Virus record (IMG/VR): IMGVR_UViG_3300047678_000082
Location: 1 to 21,662 of that record
Origin: a virus
Reading direction: 5' to 3' (one strand)
Length of the DNA stretch: 21,662 bases
This document shows, piece after piece, positions 2,429-21,662 of the stretch. Below the pieces are notes generated by a model. That model made no database searches. It was not told the origin of the DNA and saw nothing but the letters and a program-made list of their open reading frames with translations. Positions within the stretch are counted from its first letter, which is position 1, and each line of letters opens with the position of its first letter. The translations under genes were made by a program, and so were the position numbers.

Positions 2429-3107
2429 GGCGGTTTCCTGAGATGCGTTGATATTCAGCGGCGATAAGGTCGGGAACCTGGGCGCGCCATTTGGCTTCCA
2501 GCGGAGCAATGGAGAACCGCTTCCGCAGCGTGACGACGGGGACGAGAATAAAGACGACGATGGTGGCGACTTTGCCCGCCGCCGCAGCCTTTGCCGATGC
2601 TCGCGCGAAGCCGCCCCGCTTGCCGCCTCTGGCGCGTACATTGTCCGCCACCAGCAGCGACGGCTTGCCACGCCGGTAGACGAACCGCAGTTTTCCATAC
2701 CGCGCCTCGGCCGCGGCCAGCCGCTTGTCGCGGTCCCGGCCCAAGCCCACCTTCGGCGCGTTCTCAGTCGGGATCAGCAGGAAGAAGCCGCTTCCAGACC
2801 GGATGGTTGATCCGTTGGTGAACGCATACATCGCGTCCTGAGTGTGCTGGCTGCCCTTCACAAAGATTTCAGCAGACGCGCTCAGCGAACCAACACCCTG
2901 CCGAGGATAGGCTGCCGACGTCCACGAGCGTGACAGACGGCCAAGGCCACTGGACGAAGCCGCGTTCTCAAGGTCTTTCTCAAGGCCGCGCGCCGCCGTC
3001 CTCAGCCCTTCAGCCTGGGCCTTCTTCCGATATTCCAGATCGGCCTTGAGGTCCTTCGCCACCGTGCTGATGAACTTGGCGACGGCGTGCATTGAATCCC
3101 CTATCAT
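2421..3107 (-). CDS. DUF6441-family phage tail-region protein
   Basis: This 228-residue protein resembles the DUF6441 family, which is found beside the tape measure gene in alphaproteobacterial siphophages; its function is not established. The N-terminal third is charged and helical (about residues 10-55). The middle has a Lys/Arg-rich stretch with an FVYRRGKPSLLV motif, and a hydrophobic stretch (VATIVVFILVPVV) lies near residue 185. The C-terminus ends in a basic tail. Two starts are possible. ATG 3107 follows a GGAG at short spacing, and a second ATG five codons later follows GGGGA; the second may be the better start. The gene lies between the tail assembly chaperone and the tape measure and is translationally coupled to the latter. 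A minor tail or completion role is inferred from position. Confidence 0.72.
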   Translation of the reverse strand: MIGDSMHAVAKFISTVAKDLKADLEYRKKAQAEGLRTAARGLEKDLENAASSSGLGRLSRSWTSAAYPRQGVGSLSASAEIFVKGSQHTQDAMYAFTNGSTIRSGSGFFLLIPTENAPKVGLGRDRDKRLAAAEARYGKLRFVYRRGKPSLLVADNVRARGGKRGGFARASAKAAAAGKVATIVVFILVPVVTLRKRFSIAPLEAKWRAQVPDLIAAEYQRISGNRRG

Positions 3108-3138
3108 GGCGCTCCCTTATGTTCGGGAGGCCAACCTA

Positions 3139-3486
3139 ATGACCGACAGTGTTGTGAAGATCGCCGTAGTTATGGTGGGGCTAATTGTAGTGGCCACCTT
3201 AGCAGCGGGTTTTTCCGCTTCAGGATCAAACGAGCGGGGCGCCCTGAGCGAGAGTGAGGTTGTCGCGCGATGCCAAAAAGCGATTGAGGCAGAACAAAGC
3301 CCGTCTGCTACCGTCACCTACGATAGGTTCGGCGAAAAGTCCGCAAGCAAAGTCCCAGATGGGTGGGATGTCTTCATTGACTTTACTGTCAACAACGTCA
3401 CAGGCCAAACCTTGCGCATGAAAGGGCTGTGCTTTGTTGAATCGTATGGCGCTCGCGTATCAGCTTCAACTTTTGAGCGGCCTTAA
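3139..3486 (+). CDS. Small membrane-anchored or exported protein, moron-like
   Basis: This 115-residue protein is encoded on the strand opposite the surrounding tail operon. I chose ATG 3139 because a strong GGGAGG lies 8 bases upstream (3125-3130); in-frame Met codons further up overlap the DUF6441 start. Residues 7-25 form one hydrophobic segment (uncleaved anchor or signal peptide). After it comes a polar domain with two cysteines (45 and 98) and a WDVFIDFTVNNVTG motif, which suggests a small exported beta-rich domain. I recognise no family. The gene is visibly less GC-rich than its neighbours. It sits alone between divergent DUF6441 and the convergent chaperone frameshift ORF, whose stop is 9 bases away. 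Together this fits a moron, a cargo gene expressed independently of the late operon. A weak promoter would have to overlap the DUF6441 start. Confidence 0.6.
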   Translation: MTDSVVKIAVVMVGLIVVATLAAGFSASGSNERGALSESEVVARCQKAIEAEQSPSATVTYDRFGEKSASKVPDGWDVFIDFTVNNVTGQTLRMKGLCFVESYGARVSASTFERP

Positions 3487-3495
3487 ATATCGCAC

Positions 3496-3792
3496 CTAAC
3501 CCTCCCGCGCCGACTTCTTCCAGTCGTGATACTCCGCCATCACCTGATCCAGCACATTGAATGCTGACATGACGAATGCGGCCTGATCGTTCACGCCGCC
3601 TTCGTCCGGCATTCGCATGTAGCCACCTTCCGGCGACCTGCACAGGCTCCACAGAGTGATGATGTTCCAGCACCAGGCCGGAATGTCATCGGTCGGATTG
3701 GTCTCTACTTGCTCGCCGAGGATGTCCCAGGGGCCGTCTTCGTCCGGGCCGAACGCTTCGGCTTGCTGGCGGATGAAGAAGGCCCATCGGAG
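3496..3792 (-). CDS. Frameshift extension of tail assembly chaperone (gpT-like domain)
   Basis: This is a 98-codon frame in -1 relative to the chaperone gene. It runs from the slippery site to TAG at 3496. It has no usable start in its first 58 codons, so it is expected to be made only as a fusion of 223 zero-frame residues plus 98 residues (321 in total). The encoded sequence looks real: it begins LRWAFFIRQQAEAFG, has a Trp/Cys-rich middle (PAWCWNIITLWSLC), and ends in a charged helix. By analogy with lambda gpGT, this minor fusion would bind tape measure and recruit tube subunits. The frame and heptamer are seen in the sequence; the role is inferred from the conserved siphophage arrangement. 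Confidence 0.8.
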   Translation of the reverse strand, partial: LRWAFFIRQQAEAFGPDEDGPWDILGEQVETNPTDDIPAWCWNIITLWSLCRSPEGGYMRMPDEGGVNDQAAFVMSAFNVLDQVMAEYHDWKKSAREG

Positions 3793-4460
3793 TTTTTTAG
3801 GTCGTCACCGATGGTGTTCATGAGGCCGACTGCGTGCCAGCCGATCTCAAGCGCATGGCCGCTTGGCAAGGCGCTCAGGGTCTCATCCAGCACCAGCCCT
3901 GCGGTGCGGCTGATCTCGATTTCCGAATTCTCGGCGCCGACAAGAAACATGGCCGCTGCGGTGAGTGGCGCCATCTGCATCCAGAAAAGCTGCTCGCCGA
4001 ACTTGCGGCCGTAGGGCGGGAACATGCGCCGCATCTGGCCTTCAAGATCGTCCATCTGGTCCTTCAGATCGGTGATCTTTTCGAAGATCGACAGCAGTTC
4101 GGCGCCGATAGCCTTGGCTTCATCGCTGCCGTCTTCCAGGCCTTCCGACCGGGCGTTGGCGTCGATGATGTCATCCCGGTACTCGGCGAGCCTGGGCTCG
4201 TAGTTGTCGAGGAATTCCAGCAGTTCGGCGCGCTGGTCCTCGGCGACCACCTTGTTGATGCCGCGCCGCATGGACGCATAGAGCGTGTCCCCCGAGACAT
4301 GCTTCGCGCCCTGGTCCGACAGGAGCCGGTGCCATTCAGCGCGGGTGTGGAGCGTCGGAGGCTGGATCAGATAGACAACGGCGCCGGGATTCGGCTTTCC
4401 CTTGTCGTTGCAGAGCGCGCGCGGCGTGAACCGCACCGTCTGCTTGGCAGAGGTGATCAT
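3705..4460 (-). CDS. Tail assembly chaperone, zero-frame product (gpG-like)
   Basis: This 251-residue protein lies between the tail tube and tape measure genes, the standard place for the chaperone that coats the tape measure before tube polymerisation. The body is acidic and helical, with a long charged helix at about residues 85-145, and the last 30 residues are a disordered Ser/Lys/Ala-rich tail. Codons 221-223 read CTA AAA AAC and contain an in-phase A_AAA_AAC slippery heptamer. A -1 slip there replaces the disordered tail with a conserved-looking 98-residue extension (3496-3792). Translation in the zero frame gives this short form. ATG 4460 has an AGGAAG ribosome site that is partly paired in a small hairpin (4468-4486). 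Confidence 0.82.
   Translation of the reverse strand: MITSAKQTVRFTPRALCNDKGKPNPGAVVYLIQPPTLHTRAEWHRLLSDQGAKHVSGDTLYASMRRGINKVVAEDQRAELLEFLDNYEPRLAEYRDDIIDANARSEGLEDGSDEAKAIGAELLSIFEKITDLKDQMDDLEGQMRRMFPPYGRKFGEQLFWMQMAPLTAAAMFLVGAENSEIEISRTAGLVLDETLSALPSGHALEIGWHAVGLMNTIGDDLKNSDGPSSSASKPKRSARTKTAPGTSSASK
3792..3798 (-). promoter_or_regulatory. Programmed -1 ribosomal frameshift site A_AAA_AAC
   Basis: On the minus strand the sequence is CT A AAA AAC TCC, with the heptamer in the X_XXY_YYZ phase of the chaperone frame (codons 221-223). This is one of the most efficient bacterial slippery sequences. The -1 frame opens directly into a 98-codon ORF that lacks its own start. No stimulatory pseudoknot was folded. 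Confidence 0.85.
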
Positions 4461-4467
4461 GTTGCTT

Positions 4468-4486
4468 CCTATTTATCGGGAATAGG
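4468..4486 (-). promoter_or_regulatory. Hairpin overlapping the chaperone ribosome binding site
   Basis: A 6-bp inverted repeat CCTATT/AATAGG with a 7-base loop lies just upstream of ATG 4460 on the minus strand. The 3' arm contains the AGG of the AGGAAG ribosome site, so folding would reduce initiation. The stem is AT-rich and weak. A tuning role is inferred. Confidence 0.4.
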
Positions 4487-4487
4487 T

Positions 4488-4517
4488 GGCGGCGCGAAGC
4501 CCGACCCTCGCGCCGCC
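4488..4517 (-). terminator. GC-rich hairpin between tail tube and chaperone genes
   Basis: A perfect 10-bp inverted repeat (GGCGGCGCGA/TCGCGCCGCC) with a 10-base loop lies in the only sizeable gap of the tail operon. No U-run follows on the minus strand, so it may be a leaky attenuator or an mRNA-stabilising structure that keeps tube output above chaperone output. It may not be a full terminator. Confidence 0.45.
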
Positions 4518-4566
4518 GGGTCCGCTGCACACCGGGGAGGAAAGCAGCGGGACGGCTAGGGTCGGG

Positions 4567-5742
4567 TCAGTAGAAGCAGATCGAAAAAGCGTCGTTGTCG
4601 CCGGTGCAGCGGAAGTTGACGGCCTCGGTCGAGAAGCCGTCGCGGTCGCCGCCCTGGTTGTTCTGGGTCGCGTAGCAATTGGCCGCCGTCACCGCGACAC
4701 GGGCGCCGGCCGCAGTGCCCGCGCGGGCGTGGACGATGCGCGCCGTGTTGTTGCGCATGTCGGCGAGGATGTCGCGGGTGGCCAGAAGGGTTTCCAGCGG
4801 GTCGAACGAGCCGGAGGCATTGCGCAGCGTGATCTGCGCCGGATCGTAACCTTCGACACCTTCCGGGTTGTCCGGCCTCACCACCGTGTTGCCGGCATCG
4901 AAGGTCAGCGTCTTGCACTGCGCCAGGATACGGTTCCAGCGCATGCGGCTGACGGCGGATGTGGTGCCGCGCCAGACCAGCTTGGTCGTGTCATTGAACG
5001 TGCCGGAGACGTTGGCCGTGTCGGTGGCCTGGACCCAGACGCCCATGAACGAGAACGAGAACTTGATGCCCTCGCCGCTCACCCACTGCATCGTGAACGT
5101 GCCACGGCAGCCAATGCCCATCAGCTTCTTGCCGTCGCGGTACAGCCACAGCGTGGCGCTGGTCAGCGAGCTGGACGCGAACCGGTACAGCGCGTTGATC
5201 GGGATGACATAGTTCGTGGTCGCCACCAGCGCGCCGCTCATGATGTCGGTCAGCGTGGCCAGCTTGGCGGCGGAATAGGCGGCGATGAAGCTGTCGCCCG
5301 ACACCGTGCCGCTGAACGTGATCGGCATGCCGGTGTATAGGTTGGCCGTGCCGGTGGCCGACGCGCCCAAGACCGCCGTGGTGGTCGAGCCACCGGCGGC
5401 AAGGGCTTCGGGCGCCGCCGGGATCGACGTGGTGGTCAGCGTCTCGGTCATGCCGCACGCCTTGAGCAGCGGCGACATGTCGGGCGCGGTCGAGCCCAGC
5501 GCGCGGGCCTTCACCCACACGTCGAAGGTCACCGCCGTCTTGACGCCGCCAATCAGCGGGGGCGACACGTCAAGAGCACCGGATACCTCGTTGGACTGGA
5601 TGACGTTCGGCGTCTCGGTCCAGTTGACGTTCTCGACCTTGATGGCATTGGCGGCGGCGGTCGGCGTCGGATCGACACCTTCGCTGGATTCCACCTTGGC
5701 CAGCAGCGTCTGGGGGCGGGTGCGGATGAACGTGGCGACCAT
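4567..5742 (-). CDS. Major tail tube protein
   Basis: This 391-residue protein lies immediately before the chaperone with a programmed frameshift, the standard place of the tail tube gene. Tube subunits form the hexameric rings of the tail lumen. The sequence starts MVATFIRTRPQTLLAKVESS, a start typical of phage tube proteins of this type, and is rich in Thr/Ser/Ala/Val beta strands throughout. The middle (about 105-170) is a low-complexity Ala/Gly/Thr/Ser stretch that could be an inserted loop or decoration. The C-terminus contains an asparagine/glycine/aspartate-rich segment and ends SICFY. Its start overlaps the stop of the upstream small gene (TAATG). Function is assigned from position and composition, without an alignment. 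Confidence 0.8.
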   Translation of the reverse strand: MVATFIRTRPQTLLAKVESSEGVDPTPTAAANAIKVENVNWTETPNVIQSNEVSGALDVSPPLIGGVKTAVTFDVWVKARALGSTAPDMSPLLKACGMTETLTTTSIPAAPEALAAGGSTTTAVLGASATGTANLYTGMPITFSGTVSGDSFIAAYSAAKLATLTDIMSGALVATTNYVIPINALYRFASSSLTSATLWLYRDGKKLMGIGCRGTFTMQWVSGEGIKFSFSFMGVWVQATDTANVSGTFNDTTKLVWRGTTSAVSRMRWNRILAQCKTLTFDAGNTVVRPDNPEGVEGYDPAQITLRNASGSFDPLETLLATRDILADMRNNTARIVHARAGTAAGARVAVTAANCYATQNNQGGDRDGFSTEAVNFRCTGDNDAFSICFY

Positions 5743-5921
5743 TACGCGATCTCCTCAGTGGGGGCGGCCTTCGCCTTGGTTTTCGGGGGTTCGGGCGGCG
5801 CCATGGCCGCTTCCACTTCGGCGACGATCTCCGCCGCCAGCGCCTTGCCGTGGAGGTTCTCCAGGCGCAGCTTTTCCTCGGGCGGCACCTTGCCGTCCGT
5901 CGTCGAAACCGCGTGATCCAC
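5742..5921 (-). CDS. Small conserved-looking protein, GTG start
   Basis: This 59-residue protein starts at GTG 5921 behind a clear GGAGG at 6-base spacing and ends TAA, overlapping the tail tube ATG. It has a Glu/Leu/Ala-rich amphipathic helix in the middle, then a Pro/Lys-rich tail (PPEPPKTKAKAAP). I recognise no family. Its strong ribosome site and tight spacing between the tail completion gene and the tail tube gene make it a credible gene. It may be an accessory assembly factor, but nothing in the sequence proves it. Confidence 0.6.
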   Translation of the reverse strand: MDHAVSTTDGKVPPEEKLRLENLHGKALAAEIVAEVEAAMAPPEPPKTKAKAAPTEEIA

Positions 5922-5923
5922 GG

Positions 5924-6406
5924 TCAGCCTCCGATGTCTTGTGAGAAGGGGTTGGAACTGGAGGTCCAGTAATCGACCTCGAAAACGACGGTGAACGAGC
6001 CGCTGTTGGTCGCCGCGTCCATGGCGATTTCAGGCGTCATCGACAGGAACCGCATATCGACGGCGATACCGCCCAGGGTGCGCGGTTCGGTCAGCACGGC
6101 TTGCACGGTGCGGGCGTAAAGGTCATTCACGGCGGCCTCGAAGTCGGCGCCTGCTGCATCCACGTCGCCTTCCTCGGCGGCCTGCTGGACGTAGCCGTAA
6201 ACCTCGATGGTCATGGTCAGGTCTTGCTGGCCATAGGACCGCTCGTCGCCGCGTTCATTGCCCGAATTGATGATCAGGCAGGGGAATGCGGAAACGGGCG
6301 CATCACGGCCACGCTCGACGGTGACCGCATCGCCGTGTTCGTCCTCGATGCTGGCCAGCAGCGCGGCAAAGGCGCGGACCACCTGTTCGCGGATAGCGAT
6401 GGTCAT
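5924..6406 (-). CDS. Probable tail terminator / tail completion protein
   Basis: This 160-residue protein begins with a helix (REQVVRAFAALLASIED) and alternates beta strands and helices afterwards. It has a FPCLIINSGNE motif and a tandem EVYGYVQ / FEVDYWT strand pattern like gpU or tail-terminator folds, which cap the tube at the head-proximal end. The order joining protein, this gene, tube matches the position of tail terminators in siphophages. It shares an ATGA overlap with the gene upstream. The family is inferred from size, position and predicted fold. Confidence 0.6.
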   Translation of the reverse strand: MTIAIREQVVRAFAALLASIEDEHGDAVTVERGRDAPVSAFPCLIINSGNERGDERSYGQQDLTMTIEVYGYVQQAAEEGDVDAAGADFEAAVNDLYARTVQAVLTEPRTLGGIAVDMRFLSMTPEIAMDAATNSGSFTVVFEVDYWTSSSNPFSQDIGG

Positions 6407-10380: not shown

Positions 10381-11751
10381 TTACGCGCCGGCGTTCTTGT
10401 ACATACCGCGCCAGTCCAGCGCCTTGGCGGCGAAGTCGTGGCGGGCCTTGATCTCGATGCCGTCCACCTCGAATCCCACGCGGGTCTCGGTGTAGACACC
10501 GTCCTGGCCGTCCAGATAGGCATACTCGATGGTGTCGATCTGGTCCGGGGAGGCGAAGACGTACCACTGGTTACCGGTCAGCCGGGCCTCGGTGATGGGC
10601 TCGAGACCGGAGTAGACATTCTGGGTTGCCTGCGAGACCGGCACGTAGTTCGCGCTGGTCATCTGCTTGCGCACCATGTCGGTCGCCCAGCCGCCCACCA
10701 GATACCGGCCCTGCAGGTTCAGGTAGGTGGTGTCATCACTGTCGCGACCTGTCTGCGAGCCGATGGCGGTCATGGCTGCGCCAATGGTCGTCAGGTCAGG
10801 GGCCGCACCGGAACCGGACTGGTTCGCGTGATTGGTCGCGTCGAACAGCGTGTACCCGTCATTCAGCGCGGCGTTGGCAGTGATGATGCCCCACACCGTG
10901 TCCGATTCCAGGTTGGCGGCCGACTGGCCCATCAGCTGGGGGATGCGGGTGAAGGCGTTCAGATCGTCGTTGATGATCGCCTGGCGGGTGATCGGCACGA
11001 TGCGGCCATAGGTGGACAGGGAATAGACTTCCTTGCCCTCTCCGATATAACCGTAGGTGAATTCACCTTCCTCGGTGACCTTGCGCATCTTCGGGCCGCT
11101 GCCCAGCTGGGTGCGCTGCGCCTGCTTGAAGTCAGGCAACGTGGTCCGGCGGGCAATCGGCAGGAAAGTGCGCGGGGCGGTCGCATAGCCCATGCGCAGC
11201 GTCTTGTTGGCGACGTTGGCGAGGATATACGGGAAGTCGGAGGTGGACAGCATGCCGCCGGAGCGAACATCCATGCCCAGCACCAGGCCGGCGCGGGCCA
11301 TCTTGTCAGTGCCCTTGGTGTTGACGCCGCGGCGCTCCAGGAGGTCGGTGCCGACTTCCAGCAGCGAACGGCCCATGAACTGGCGGGCGCCGTCTTCCAG
11401 CGGATTCTTGGCCGGATCATAGCGGTGCATGATGGCGTTTTCGGCCAGTGCGCGGGTCGTGTCGACTTCGTCGCGGGTGATCTGGACATGGTTTTCGGTG
11501 CGCACCTGTTCGTCCTTTGCGGCAAGGTGATCGAAGATCGCGGCGCGGGCCTGCTCGATGGTCAGGCCCTTGTCTTCCACGCTCTCAAACAGAGCATCGC
11601 GGTAGACGGTATCGAGGCCAACCGCGCGAACGGCGGCGGTCACTTCCTTGAAGCTTGCCTTGGCCGGCTTCTCGGTGCGGGTTTCAACCGCGACCTGGGC
11701 GGGCTCGGTGCGGACTTCGGTGGCGGGCGGGTTGCCCGTGGCTTCGGTCAT
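10381..11751 (-). CDS. Major capsid protein (protease-fused HK97-type)
   Basis: This 456-residue product is counted from the internal ATG 11751. The first 100 residues are polar and helical (a scaffold-like delta region with ATEVRTEPAQVAVETRTEKP). They are followed by a capsid body with landmark pieces GFFTYGYIGEGKE-like (here EFTYGYIGEGKEVYSLSTY), GRIVPITRQAIINDD, and a C-terminal EIKARHDFAAKALDWRGMYK. These match the capsid domain of protease/capsid fusion proteins from alphaproteobacterial prophages. The frame continues upstream into a protease remnant, so full-length protein was originally a fusion. An AGGAG at 11758-11762, 6 bases from this ATG, suggests that capsid protein can also be made alone. 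Confidence 0.88.
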   Translation of the reverse strand: MTEATGNPPATEVRTEPAQVAVETRTEKPAKASFKEVTAAVRAVGLDTVYRDALFESVEDKGLTIEQARAAIFDHLAAKDEQVRTENHVQITRDEVDTTRALAENAIMHRYDPAKNPLEDGARQFMGRSLLEVGTDLLERRGVNTKGTDKMARAGLVLGMDVRSGGMLSTSDFPYILANVANKTLRMGYATAPRTFLPIARRTTLPDFKQAQRTQLGSGPKMRKVTEEGEFTYGYIGEGKEVYSLSTYGRIVPITRQAIINDDLNAFTRIPQLMGQSAANLESDTVWGIITANAALNDGYTLFDATNHANQSGSGAAPDLTTIGAAMTAIGSQTGRDSDDTTYLNLQGRYLVGGWATDMVRKQMTSANYVPVSQATQNVYSGLEPITEARLTGNQWYVFASPDQIDTIEYAYLDGQDGVYTETRVGFEVDGIEIKARHDFAAKALDWRGMYKNAGA

Positions 11752-11952
11752 CGGATTCTCCTCTGATGGACCAGGCTCGGGCAGTGCCCGGATGGTGCAG
11801 GGAAAAGTCTTGGTGTTTTCGCTGCGGACCCCTGCGCCCGCATCGGCCCCTACCGGGACAAAACTCAGTTCCATGGGCTCCCAATCGGTGGCCCGCCAGA
11901 TGTCGGGACCGTCGTCGGATTCCGTCTTCTCGTAGGTGTGGACGCGGTACCC
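11752..11952 (-). pseudogene. Prohead protease, C-terminal remnant (5' end lost)
   Basis: This frame is continuous with the capsid gene. It encodes GYRVHTYEKTESDDGPDIW, then RATDWEPMELSFVPVGADAG, a hallmark of the end of HK97-type prohead proteases. That enzyme cleaves scaffold and capsid N-termini inside the prohead. The catalytic His and Ser lie in the part that should precede GYRV, and that part is absent. Upstream, the sequence abruptly becomes antisense to a methyltransferase fragment. The reading frame stays open to 12114 by chance, but that extra piece is not protease. The cut coincides with the genome junction at about 11945-11962. Confidence 0.75.
11758..11762 (-). promoter_or_regulatory. 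Internal ribosome binding site for the capsid domain
   Basis: AGGAG lies on the minus strand with a 6-base spacer before ATG 11751, inside the protease/capsid frame. It would permit capsid synthesis independent of the protease, and it decides the start chosen for the capsid entry. Confidence 0.55.
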
Positions 11953-11962
11953 ACAGCATTCC
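11945..11962. other. Head-to-head junction of two 5'-truncated genes
   Basis: To the left the minus strand codes for the end of a prohead protease. To the right the plus strand codes for the end of a DNA methyltransferase. Both coding homologies stop here and both 5' ends are missing. The missing interval would normally hold protease active site, portal, terminase, replication and repressor genes. This is a deletion end-joint or an assembly misjoin. Confidence 0.7.
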
Positions 11963-12409
11963 GACGCCGACAGCCTCGGATCACATCGAGCGGCAGGAAA
12001 CCTACGGCCAACTGAACTATGCGACGAACAAGGCGGTGACGCTGGATCGGTTTGCGAAGATGTGGCCGACACCAACAGTAAGCGGAAATCACAACCGGAA
12101 GGGCGCGTCGGCAAACTCAGGCGACGGACTCGCGACCGCAGTCAAGATGTGGCGCACACCAGCAGCATCGGATGCGAACAAGTGGTCGAACCAGTCTTTG
12201 GAAGAGCGTTTGGCCAAGGGGCAGCAGATCAGATTGAACACGCAAGTCTCACCCAAGGGTGGGGCTGGTGGCGCACTGAACCCGACGTGGGTCGAGTGGC
12301 TCATGGGGTTCCCGCTCGGGTGGACCGACTTAAAGGGCTAGGCAACGCCGTAGTCCCCCAAATCCCCGAGATGATCGGGCGTGCCATTCTTGCAGCGCGG
12401 GGTGAGTGA
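11955..12409 (+). pseudogene. DNA cytosine methyltransferase, C-terminal remnant with frameshift
   Basis: The plus frame from about 11955 reads SIPTPTASDHIERQ, then WPTPTVSGNHNRKGASA, GDGLATAVKMW and NPTWVEWLMGFPLGW. This is the repeating WPTPTASD pattern and conserved C-terminus of phage cytosine-5 methyltransferases. The catalytic PC motif and SAM-binding motifs lie in the lost 5' part. The frame stops at TAG 12339-12341. The characteristic last motif, LGNAVVPQIPEMIGRAIL, continues in the -1 frame to 12409. The change of frame falls exactly on A_AAG_GGC, just before the stop. It is either a frameshift mutation in a decaying gene or a slippage site. Enzymatic activity is not expected from this copy. 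Confidence 0.75.
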
Positions 12410-12446: not shown

Positions 12447-12635
12447 ATGACGCGGTATGTGTGCATCAAGAAGTTCGCCGAGATCAGCGGCTACAGCGAG
12501 AAGGCGATCTATCATAAGGTCGAAAACGGCGTGTGGGTCGAGGGCCATCAGTACAAGAAGGCCAGGGACAACCGCATCCTGATCGACATCAAGGGGTATG
12601 AGCGATGGGTAGAGGGCGGCCAGGGACCGGCGTAG
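12447..12635 (+). CDS. xis: Excisionase-like DNA-binding protein
   Basis: This 62-residue protein contains a winged-helix DNA-binding motif (KKFAEISGYSEKAIYHKV at about residues 8-25) and a basic wing (HQYKKARDNRILI), as in phage excisionases and excisionase-like regulators. It would bend attP or attL/R DNA and direct the integrase to excision. It lies immediately upstream of the integrase and overlaps its start by 31 bases, the usual xis-int layout. GGAG lies 9 bases before the ATG. A 13-codon ORF (12409-12450) overlaps its start by ATGA and may couple translation. The exact Pfam family was not searched. Confidence 0.75.
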   Translation: MTRYVCIKKFAEISGYSEKAIYHKVENGVWVEGHQYKKARDNRILIDIKGYERWVEGGQGPA

Positions 12636-13771
12636 AGCCGTTACAGACATGCATCCGCATCCGATTCCAGTACCAGAACCAGCGCTGCACCGAACGGCTC
12701 GACTTGGAGCCGACGCCGGCCAACATCAAGGCTGCGGTGCGGCTGGTGGCGAAGGTCAAGGGCCAGATCGCCCACGGCACGTTCGACTACGCCGAGACGT
12801 TCCCGAATTCACCCCGCGCGTTGCAGGCGCCCAAGCGGCTGTTCAGGGATTACGCAAAGGCATGGCTGGGCACGTTGACGGTGCAGAAGTCCACCCGCAA
12901 GGGCTACGAGAACGCCATAGACTACGTTTGGATTCCCGCGCTTGGGGACCGGCCTGTTGCCGAGATCGTCTATTCGGAGATCGCCAAGGTGGTCGGGGAG
13001 AAGGCGGAGACGGCCAGCGGCAAGACGGTCAACAATATCCTGATCCCGCTCCGCAAGGTGTTCGCGTCGGCGAAGGCGGACAAGATGATCAAGGATTTGC
13101 CCACTGCCGAAGTGCACAATTTGCCGCACCAGTCACCGGAGCCGGACCCGTTCGAGCGAGGCGAGATGGAAAAGATCGTCGCCTTCATGAAGGACAAGTA
13201 CCCGGAGCAGGTGTGGAACTATTACGAGTTCGCGTTCAATACCGGCCTGCGCCCATCCGAACAGATCGTGGTGCGCTGGGCAGACGTGGATTGGGTACGC
13301 CGGAAGATCAAGATCGAGCGCGCCAGGGTGCGCTTCCGAGAGAAGGGCACCAAAACGAATACCGTGCGACTGGTAGACCTGAACGACCGCGCCATGGAGG
13401 CCCTGGAGCGTCAGAAGGCGCACACCTTCATGAAGGGCGAGGAGATATTCGAGAACCCCGTCAGCGGGCGCGTGTGGGCCAGCGAGAAGGTACAGCGGCT
13501 GAAATACTTCTACCCTGCTCAGAAGGCGCTTGGCATCAGGGTTCGGCACGCCTACCAGACCCGGCACACCTACGCGACCGTCCGGCTCATGGGCGGCATC
13601 GTCCCCGCCTACATTGCCAAGCAGCTCGGGCACAAGACCACGGCCATGCTGTTCAAGCACTACGCCAAATGGATCGAAGGCGCGGACAAAGGGACCGAAG
13701 CGGCCAAGGTGAATGCGTTATTTGCCCAGCATTTGCCCACGGACGTTGCAAACACCGCAGAAACCCGCTAA
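12605..13771 (+). CDS. int: Tyrosine recombinase integrase
   Basis: This 388-residue integrase has three domains. Residues 1-60 form an arm-site-binding domain of the DUF3596 type (MGRGRPGTGVE, then IRIRFQYQNQRCTERL). Residues about 75-165 are a SAM-like core-binding domain. The catalytic domain covers about 180-360. Catalytic residues visible are Arg216 (TGLRPSE), a Lys near 248-250, Arg320 in YQTRHTYAT, His343 (QLGHKTT) and the nucleophile Tyr353 (FKHYAKW). The usual first His of H-x-x-R is Tyr317, as is common in this subgroup. It recombines attP with a host tRNA attB. The gene ends 5 bases before the tRNA-like att core. Confidence 0.93.
   Translation: MGRGRPGTGVEPLQTCIRIRFQYQNQRCTERLDLEPTPANIKAAVRLVAKVKGQIAHGTFDYAETFPNSPRALQAPKRLFRDYAKAWLGTLTVQKSTRKGYENAIDYVWIPALGDRPVAEIVYSEIAKVVGEKAETASGKTVNNILIPLRKVFASAKADKMIKDLPTAEVHNLPHQSPEPDPFERGEMEKIVAFMKDKYPEQVWNYYEFAFNTGLRPSEQIVVRWADVDWVRRKIKIERARVRFREKGTKTNTVRLVDLNDRAMEALERQKAHTFMKGEEIFENPVSGRVWASEKVQRLKYFYPAQKALGIRVRHAYQTRHTYATVRLMGGIVPAYIAKQLGHKTTAMLFKHYAKWIEGADKGTEAAKVNALFAQHLPTDVANTAETR
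13721..13740 (+). repeat. Left pair of putative integrase arm-type sites
   Basis: TTTGCCCAG at 13721 and TTTGCCCAC at 13732 are direct repeats 11 bases apart, inside the 3' end of int. A matching pair lies on the other side of the att core (13882-13902). Paired direct repeats on both sides of the core are typical of integrase arm sites in attP. Confidence 0.6.
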
Positions 13772-13776
13772 AAATA

Positions 13777-13804
13777 TGGTGCGAGCGACGGGAGTCGAAC
13801 CCGT
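13777..13804 (-). other. attP: attP core: 3' end of a tRNA gene (T arm to CCA)
   Basis: Read on the minus strand, this is a tRNA 3' end. It has a T stem ACGGG/CCCGT with loop TTCGACT, an acceptor 3' half CGCTCGC, a discriminator A, and encoded CCA. No anticodon or D arm is present upstream, so it is a tRNA fragment and not a gene. Phage integrases commonly use such ends as attP cores, and this one follows int directly. The host tRNA should begin GCGAGCG; its identity cannot be read from this fragment. Core length against attB is unknown. Confidence 0.82.
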
Positions 13805-16761: not shown

Positions 16762-16953
16762 TCAGAAGGCCTTCGCGAGACCCGCCTGTTTTAGAACTTC
16801 GTTTGCCGTGTGCCGGGACTTGATGTCCGTATCGACCGTGACGTGCCTGTTGCTGTGTGGGCTGTACCAGATGTCATGGTCGCCCTTGCCGCGCCTCTCG
16901 AAAGTGCAGCCGCCGTCCTTCAGCAATTTCCGGACTTCGCGGCCATAGCTCAT
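16762..16953 (-). CDS. hicA: HicA-family mRNA interferase toxin
   Basis: This 63-residue protein is typical of HicA size. It shows YGREVRKLLKDGGCTFERRG, then KGDHDIWYSP with the catalytic-position His26, and a closing helix (SRHTANEVLKQAGL). HicA toxins are dsRBD-like ribonucleases that cleave translated mRNAs; activity depends on this His. Its ATG abuts the hicB stop (TGAATG), and it is transcribed downstream of the antitoxin. A strong terminator follows. The gene could stabilise the element or act as an abortive or lysogeny-related module. Confidence 0.88.
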   Translation of the reverse strand: MSYGREVRKLLKDGGCTFERRGKGDHDIWYSPHSNRHVTVDTDIKSRHTANEVLKQAGLAKAF

Positions 16954-17202
16954 TCACTGGCTCGTGCGCATATCCAATTCGAGGCGTTTATCCGCCATAA
17001 GATGGACCGGCAACGGGCATTGACCCGTTCCCTCACCATCGTTAAGACCAACCAATTCTGGGATGATAACCTCCAGCTTCTTGATCAGCTTTTCAATGGT
17101 TTCGGCCTCCGTGGCCAACCCCTCGATATCGTCGCTCCGCGCCCACCAGACTTTTGCTTCTTCGTCCCACGTCGCAAAAACTGTGATGCCACCCGCACTC
17201 AT
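16954..17202 (-). CDS. hicB: HicB-like antitoxin (DUF1902 type)
   Basis: This 82-residue protein has the DUF1902 form of the HicB fold: strand FATWDEEAKVWWARSDDIEG, helix ATEAETIEKLIKKLEVIIPE, then a polar tail (VHLMADKRLELDMRTSQ). It would bind and inhibit HicA. Unlike longer HicB proteins, no separate DNA-binding domain is evident, so autorepression may need the HicA/HicB complex. GGAG precedes ATG 17202 with 6-base spacing. The pair lies between tail-tip and lysis genes. Confidence 0.85.
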   Translation of the reverse strand: MSAGGITVFATWDEEAKVWWARSDDIEGLATEAETIEKLIKKLEVIIPELVGLNDGEGTGQCPLPVHLMADKRLELDMRTSQ

Positions 17203-20696: not shown

Positions 20697-21662
20697 CTAA
20701 CGCAGTCCCGCGACGGCCTGTTGAATGGCGCCGAAGTCGATGTTGCCGACAGTGACCACACCATTCTGCGTCGGCGCCGCGCTGCCACGCTGTGCCGCGC
20801 CGGCCGATGCCGACAGCAGCGAGATCACGGTGTCCAGCTTGGCATTGGTGTCGGCGCGCTGGTTCGCGGCGCGCTCGGCATAGGCCGCCTGCACACGGGT
20901 GTTATCGTTCACCGCCGCCGCCGCATTGCTGTTGGCAGCCGCAAGCGGATTGGCCGATCCTGTCACCTGCGAGAGTGTCGCCACCACGTTCTGATAGCTG
21001 GACTGGAAGCCGCCCGCCGATCCGTAGACCGCCTGCGATGCCGACAGGAAGTCCTGCGAGGCACCCTGTAGCGCGGCGATGGCATCGGTGTCCCCGGCAA
21101 GCGCCCGGCCACGAATATCGTTGTAGCGGGTCTGGGCAAGGTTGAGCCGGTTGGTCGGCGACAGCGGAGACGCGGAACCGCCCGTGATGCTGAACAAGTA
21201 ATCCTTCAGGCCGCCGAGCGACTGTTCCATGGCAGCGTTCTGTTGCTGGTTGTACTGCGCGACCAGGTCCAGCCGCTTCTGCGCATAGACGGCTTCCAGC
21301 TTGGTCTTGTCGGCCTCGTACTTGTCGGCAAGGATCAGCTGCTGCTGGTACTCGAATTCCAGCCGGGCCTGTGCCTCGGCTAGCGGGTTGGACAGGCCGG
21401 TGAACTGGAAGTCGAGCTCGCGCTTGAAGTCGTGGCTGGCCACCACGTCCTGCATGGCCTGCTCCACCGATCCCGCAGCCCGCATCAGCTTCTTGTCGGC
21501 GTCGGTCAGGCCCTTCACCACGCCTGAATTGATGGCAGCCTCGATGGCGGCGGCAATAGCTTCCTCAGCGCTGTCGAACTTCACCGCGCCGTACTTGCCC
21601 TTGCCGGCGGATTTGAGGTCGGACTGCTGCGACTGATAGAAGAACTTCTTCCCGCGCTGGCC
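20697..21662 (-). CDS. Tape measure protein, C-terminal part (enters from right edge)
   Basis: The frame is open to the right edge. 322 codons including the stop are visible, without an initiator at the edge; the first internal ATG is 21584. The edge codons read GQRGKKFFYQSQQSDLKSAG, then KGKYGAVKFDSAEEAIAAAI, a typical C-terminal tape measure segment. A helical domain (about residues 100-190 of the fragment) and a disordered Ala/Asn-rich end follow. It precedes the tail tip gene, as expected. It is very probably the missing end of the gene at 1-2428. A direct join of the two window ends changes frame, so some bases (2 modulo 3) are missing between them. Confidence 0.88.
   Translation of the reverse strand, partial: GQRGKKFFYQSQQSDLKSAGKGKYGAVKFDSAEEAIAAAIEAAINSGVVKGLTDADKKLMRAAGSVEQAMQDVVASHDFKRELDFQFTGLSNPLAEAQARLEFEYQQQLILADKYEADKTKLEAVYAQKRLDLVAQYNQQQNAAMEQSLGGLKDYLFSITGGSASPLSPTNRLNLAQTRYNDIRGRALAGDTDAIAALQGASQDFLSASQAVYGSAGGFQSSYQNVVATLSQVTGSANPLAAANSNAAAAVNDNTRVQAAYAERAANQRADTNAKLDTVISLLSASAGAAQRGSAAPTQNGVVTVGNIDFGAIQQAVAGLR

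Follow-up and report, generated by a model that had tools for sequence, protein, structure and literature searches.

Genes and features of the window

The DNA analysed here, called the window throughout, is the whole of a virus record of 21,662 bases that is classed as linear. Siphophage head and tail genes, together with lysis genes and an attP-like site, lie on one side, and the opposite strand carries an excisionase, an integrase and a fragment of a methyltransferase. Two genes that both lack their 5' ends meet head to head in the middle of this arrangement, and the contig ends lie within a single tape-measure gene. The features on which the argument turns are as follows.

1-2698, minus: 5' part of the tape-measure gene, running off the contig start (PF20155; collinear with relative L131)
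10381-11949, minus: prohead protease/major capsid fusion gene, 5'-truncated before GYRVH (NF045541, alignment with relatives L035 and L045, DNA break)
11948-11952: joint, placed by the limits of similarity to relatives on both sides
11948-12409, plus: C-terminal remnant of a C5-cytosine methyltransferase, frame A, YPQHSDAD...RLKGLGNAVVPQIPEMIGRAILAARGE (C-terminal matches to PHROG 363 and PHROG 32758)
11949-12341, plus: C-terminal remnant of an overlapping +1 ORF, frame B, THSIPTPTASD...NPTWVEWLMGFPLGWTDLKG (PHROG 1008)
12447-12635, plus: excisionase-like protein (PHROG 9668, PHROG 539)
12605-13771, plus: tyrosine integrase (PF00589, PF12167, PHROG 1)
13777-13804, plus: probable attP core, TGGTGCGAGCGACGGGAGTCGAACCCGT, directly after the integrase stop
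20697-21662, minus: 3' part of the tape-measure gene, running off the contig end (one gene with 1-2698)

Neither a terminase nor a portal gene was seen in the ORF list of the window. A toxin-antitoxin-like pair lies on the minus strand between the lysis and tail genes (16762-17202); the small toxin matches PHROG 353, and its neighbor, which presumably resembles HicB, gives only a weak profile match to a family of unknown function.

How isolated is this virus? A megablast search of phage genomes with the whole window returned no matches. The integrase found distant relatives only (about 33% identity), none of them among the tail-gene relatives at the E limit used. The capsid gene, searched against a genome collection, retrieved relatives that reach about 50% identity at best across most of its length, with no host assigned, and one short fragment at 79% identity.

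Two truncated genes at the joint

The minus-strand gene was called a prohead protease in the preliminary description. The protease part of that call stands, but it is not a separate gene: ORF 10381-12114 belongs to a family in which protease and major capsid protein are fused (NF045541). The ORF scores 572.9 bits against a cut-off of 525, yet the match covers only positions 110-634 of the 634-position model; likewise, the match to PHROG 4523 begins at position 130 of 644. The ORF thus reads as a truncated, clearly homologous member of NF045541. Its seven closest relatives (L030-L036), at 70% amino acid identity, run uninterrupted through the point just before GYRVH where the break had been placed (...QGIVRNVSV-GYRVHTYEK...), and their frame continues upstream for 137 further open codons, about 131 of them from the Met. 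At the nucleotide level, blastn similarity to the closest relatives stops at window position 11952, and the 53 window-ORF residues ahead of CGYRVH are methyltransferase sequence read in antisense. An alignment to L035 and L045 places the start codon and the conserved LDxH and VSVGY segments in the missing part; we take these segments to hold the catalytic His and Ser of HK97-type proteases. The intact L035 homolog matches NF045541 from position 1. Upstream of it lie, in order, a small terminase (52-609), a large terminase (569-2494; PHROG 15, E 4e-235) and a lambda-type portal (2660-4231; TIGR01539, E 1.3e-91), followed by the protease/capsid gene itself (4182-6176).

On the plus side, the C-terminal matches to PHROG 363 and PHROG 32758, together with full-length relatives, agree with the earlier view that a cytosine methyltransferase has lost its 5' half. 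The residues given for the edge of that gene were wrong, for PTPTASD belongs to the +1 frame B, and the methyltransferase frame at the joint reads YPQHSDAD. Frame A of the window runs from there to GLGNAVVPQIPEMIGRAILAARGE. In full-length relatives (L141, L137, L135 and L133), ...APHRRDRVWIIA precedes the part equivalent to YPQHSDAD; the cut falls between RDRVWIIA and YPQHSDAD, and motifs I-VIII, that is the catalytic domain, are gone. The PCQ and ENV motifs that mark PF00145 are present in the intact relatives and absent from the window fragment, which has no Pfam match. Judged from its sequence, the fragment is a non-functional remnant.

Similarity to the methyltransferase genes of L141, L154, L155 and L157 begins at window position 11948. 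From that position, TACCCACAGCATTCCGACGCC is exactly common to the window, L141 and L194, while the preceding base is C in the two relatives and G in the window; therefore 11948 is the first base of the methyltransferase part, and the protease part extends to 11949 or 11952. The exact joint lies at 11948-11949, or 11952 at the furthest, inside the interval 11945-11962 proposed at the outset, and beyond these limits each side matches its own relatives only. A head-to-head joint of two 5'-truncated genes is thereby borne out, with similarity ending at 11952 on the minus side and beginning at 11948 on the plus side. The two sides share 2 bp, TA (11948-11949), if the parental Gly codon was GGC, GGT or GGA, as in 49 of 50 relatives, and 5 bp, TACCC, if it was GGG, as in 1 of 50. 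Five base pairs of microhomology were considered, but the estimate was lowered to 2 bp, since the GGG codon that it requires is unused in 49 of the 50 relatives. By our own arithmetic, for random joints and equal base frequencies, 2 bp or more of overlap is expected with a probability of about 0.16; therefore no homology is implied at the joint. No run of N lies there. A 21-mer across the joint had no match in the viral_contigs set, from which near-identical records may be absent.

Relatives, contig ends and circularity

Two IMG/VR records, 3300042504_000534 (L035/L130) and 3300044733_001760 (L131), share the tail, tape-measure and lysis genes of the window, arranged alike and mostly 72-86% identical in DNA. 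In L131 an integrase follows the lysis genes on the opposite strand, the same place as in the window. Unlike the window, L035 has the terminase, the portal and the 5' end of the protease, and in L035/L130 and L131 the tape-measure gene is continuous and there is no joint. L130, L131 and L033 carry some 600 extra bases (5351-5978 in L131) at window position 4566/4567, which the window lacks; a small ORF within them presumably resembles RelE/HigB.

The absence of terminase and portal reported earlier is thus confirmed, both genes lying just upstream of the protease in an intact relative. That these genes belong between the two truncated ones also holds for terminase and portal, provided that "between" is read on a circular map. 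The search for an intact parent found relatives with intact counterparts but not the exact parent phage. No relative has the two gene ends adjacent, and the joint was seen in no other record. Relatives with an intact order of small terminase, large terminase, portal and protease/capsid show that parental sequence is interrupted here, which supports the original alternative of a large internal deletion or a misassembly.

Rhodobacter phages RcKemmy, RcOceanus and their relatives belong to the same protease/major-capsid fusion family, with about 44% identity across all of the retained part. In these phages the fusion gene is intact and the genomes are mostly 38-42 kb, while the window, without the 5' part of the gene, is 21.66 kb. 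The parent was probably a temperate tailed phage of about 38-42 kb from which, by the genome sizes of same-capsid relatives, roughly 16-20 kb are probably missing; parent size and exact overlap at the joint are both read from relatives at 70% amino acid identity in the capsid gene.

Despite its linear class, the record probably represents a circle of about 21.69 kb left unclosed. In L131, where the tape-measure gene is continuous, 40 nt separate the counterparts of window bases 21662 and 9, against 8 in the window, so that 32 nt are missing; this gap accounts for the difference in frame between the two tape-measure halves. The window has no end repeat of 10 to 200 bases, so a circle with perfectly overlapping ends was rejected. 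In order and orientation, the window is otherwise collinear with L035 and L131.

The site after the integrase stop also bears on circularity. In reverse complement, TGGTGCGAGCGACGGGAGTCGAACCCGT reads like the 3' end of a tRNA, comprising the T arm, the acceptor strand and CCA, and ARAGORN finds no tRNA gene in the contig. A tRNA 3' end beside an integrase, with no complete tRNA, points to attP and hence to DNA in circular or virion form, not integrated as a prophage.

Two open reading frames in the methyltransferase gene

Why should PTPTASD, in the wrong frame, have looked like methyltransferase? With the frame-B fragment as query, 80 related loci (L133-L212) were fetched; loci L221-L224 were examined as well. 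At 76 of the 80, a frame-A methyltransferase with catalytic motifs overlaps a frame-B ORF of 164-368 aa, always at the same offset. The longest open frame B was reached by at most 5% of synonymous-codon shuffles that keep the frame-A protein at 71 of these 76 loci; the corresponding count for the third frame was 9. The 80 loci are mutually related and were chosen by C-terminal frame-B similarity, so the openness of frame B in that region is partly built in. No such bias from the selection applies to frame B staying open in the catalytic region or to frame A staying open in the C-terminal region. From PCQ to RxRxW, at 52 loci, frame B holds no stops where 78.8 are expected, and the third frame holds 170 (174.8 expected). 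In the C-terminal region, frame A holds 11 stops where shuffles that keep frame B predict 185.6, and the third frame holds 400 (383 expected). In the catalytic region, substitutions between homologs are concentrated at the third codon positions of frame A (0.54), and in the C-terminal region at those of frame B (0.50); on a finer scan the pattern shifts after RxRxW and goes back to frame A around motif X.

The openness of both frames at 76 of 80 loci, far past the expectation from synonymous shuffles, suggests a widespread dual-coding phage methyltransferase. Frame A would supply catalytic motifs I-VIII and motif X, and frame B would supply a WPTPTxSD...WVEWLMGFPxGWT segment resembling a target-recognition part and motif IX. 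We think it somewhat probable that the plus-side gene of the window is a remnant of such a gene, whose enzyme would depend for its activity or specificity on both products or on a frameshift product. We rejected a CCC-type +1 slippage site at the transition from A to B, since both the window and L141 read CCA at that point. Frame B gave no matches in Pfam, NCBIfam or PADLOC, a profile search of solved structures returned only chance-level matches, and structure prediction for the frame-B protein alone was of low confidence (pLDDT 54.5, pTM 0.24).

A literature search found no paper on an overlapping frame-B methyltransferase ORF; other insertions in actinophage methylases, distinct from frame B, are described in PMC9957025. 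Some phage records annotate both ORFs. In Paenibacillus phage Shelly, frame B is recorded as a "g55 internal gene", and in Mycobacterium phage Aubs and Klebsiella phage VLCpiS13e it is present and unannotated. Streptomyces phage RemusLoopin (802-1855 of L224) has its methyltransferase split into gp34 and gp35, both annotated "DNA methylase". Motifs I-VIII lie in one frame in gp34; gp35, in the +1 frame, carries PTPTVAD, SPEFAEWLMGLEPGW and RIGNGVVPHQ, corresponding to the recognition domain and motifs IX-X. The pair is either a split enzyme or the product of a programmed frameshift, and this case suggests that frame B supplies the same enzyme's recognition domain and its motif IX. In two-subunit cytosine methyltransferases of the M.AquI type, motifs I-VIII lie in one polypeptide and target recognition and the later motifs in another, a division that resembles the split between gp34 and gp35. 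Unlike in the M.AquI type, at most of the loci studied the two frames are not consecutive but overlap over 500-1100 nt.

Long out-of-frame overlaps on the same strand that are held open across many phages are rare. If true, an overlap through a DNA methyltransferase would be a directly testable case of dual coding, and it would explain why gene callers label either frame "DNA methylase". The overlapping methyltransferase frames deserve separate study.

Origin of the joint

How did the two genes come together? Both are truncated, both have intact counterparts in relatives, the contig ends nearly close on each other, and the joint is free of repeats. Our main reading, to which we assign a probability of about 0.5, is that the window is an opened circle of about 21.69 kb in which one segment of a temperate tailed-phage genome was joined to itself, most likely by illegitimate deletion in vivo. 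The retained segment would run without interruption from protease/capsid through tail, lysis, attP, integrase and excisionase genes to the methyltransferase, and its ends would have been closed by a non-homologous join with an overlap of about 2 bp. The lost half would comprise the methyltransferase 5' end, the early/replication region, terminase, portal and the protease 5' end. The product would be a defective phage or prophage circle, unable on its own to mature capsids or package DNA. A large part of an intact parent is gone and a single abnormal joint is left, as in a deletion-type defective genome. In all likelihood the joint existed in a DNA molecule, because an assembler cannot join sequences at 2-5 common bases. 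Several points count against the main reading: a deeply covered circle gives overlapping ends, whereas here a 32-nt gap remains; the joint, found in no other record, may be unique to one library; and the exact parent phage did not turn up.

The first two of these also favor an artifact of the library, in which a fragment of the intact phage was circularized, or switched template, during amplification or library making and was then sequenced. Such a chimera would show short or no homology between partners, and here the overlap is 2-5 bp and both partners are intact in relatives. The repeat-free 2-bp joint, its uniqueness in viral_contigs, the cutting of both genes at random functional points and the lack of overlap between contig ends all fit this explanation, which we hold to be possible but short of an even chance. 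It must contend with a contig that crosses the joint and closes to within 32 nt, so that joined molecules would have outweighed the native path, and this needs strong amplification of a single chimera. A fault of software, whereby the assembler fused two separate contigs from a single phage at a short word that they have in common, was proposed in the preliminary description, and metagenome contigs do contain misjoins; with 2-5 bp in common, far under any assembly word length, and no N run at the joint, we regard it as improbable. Less probable still is that the gene order is natural and conserved, in a phage or satellite borrowing the terminase and portal of a helper. Integrase, excisionase, tail and lysis genes are intact, as such an element would have them, and two copies of 21.69 kb (43.4 kb) would come near what a full head of these phages holds. 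At the joint, however, both genes are decapitated within conserved codons with no new start, the capsid gene lacks its own protease active site, and the arrangement is found in no relative.

The joint is the mark of an ordinary defective or chimeric genome, not of a new kind of gene arrangement. The record should pass neither as a complete small phage nor as a satellite, and its missing terminase and portal reflect loss rather than the biology of the lineage. The terminase region, where cos or pac sites often sit, is missing as well. The nearest known parallel to our main reading is provided by deletion-type defective interfering phage genomes and defective prophages, which, as the window would on that reading, have a large internal deletion and retain some structural and integration genes.
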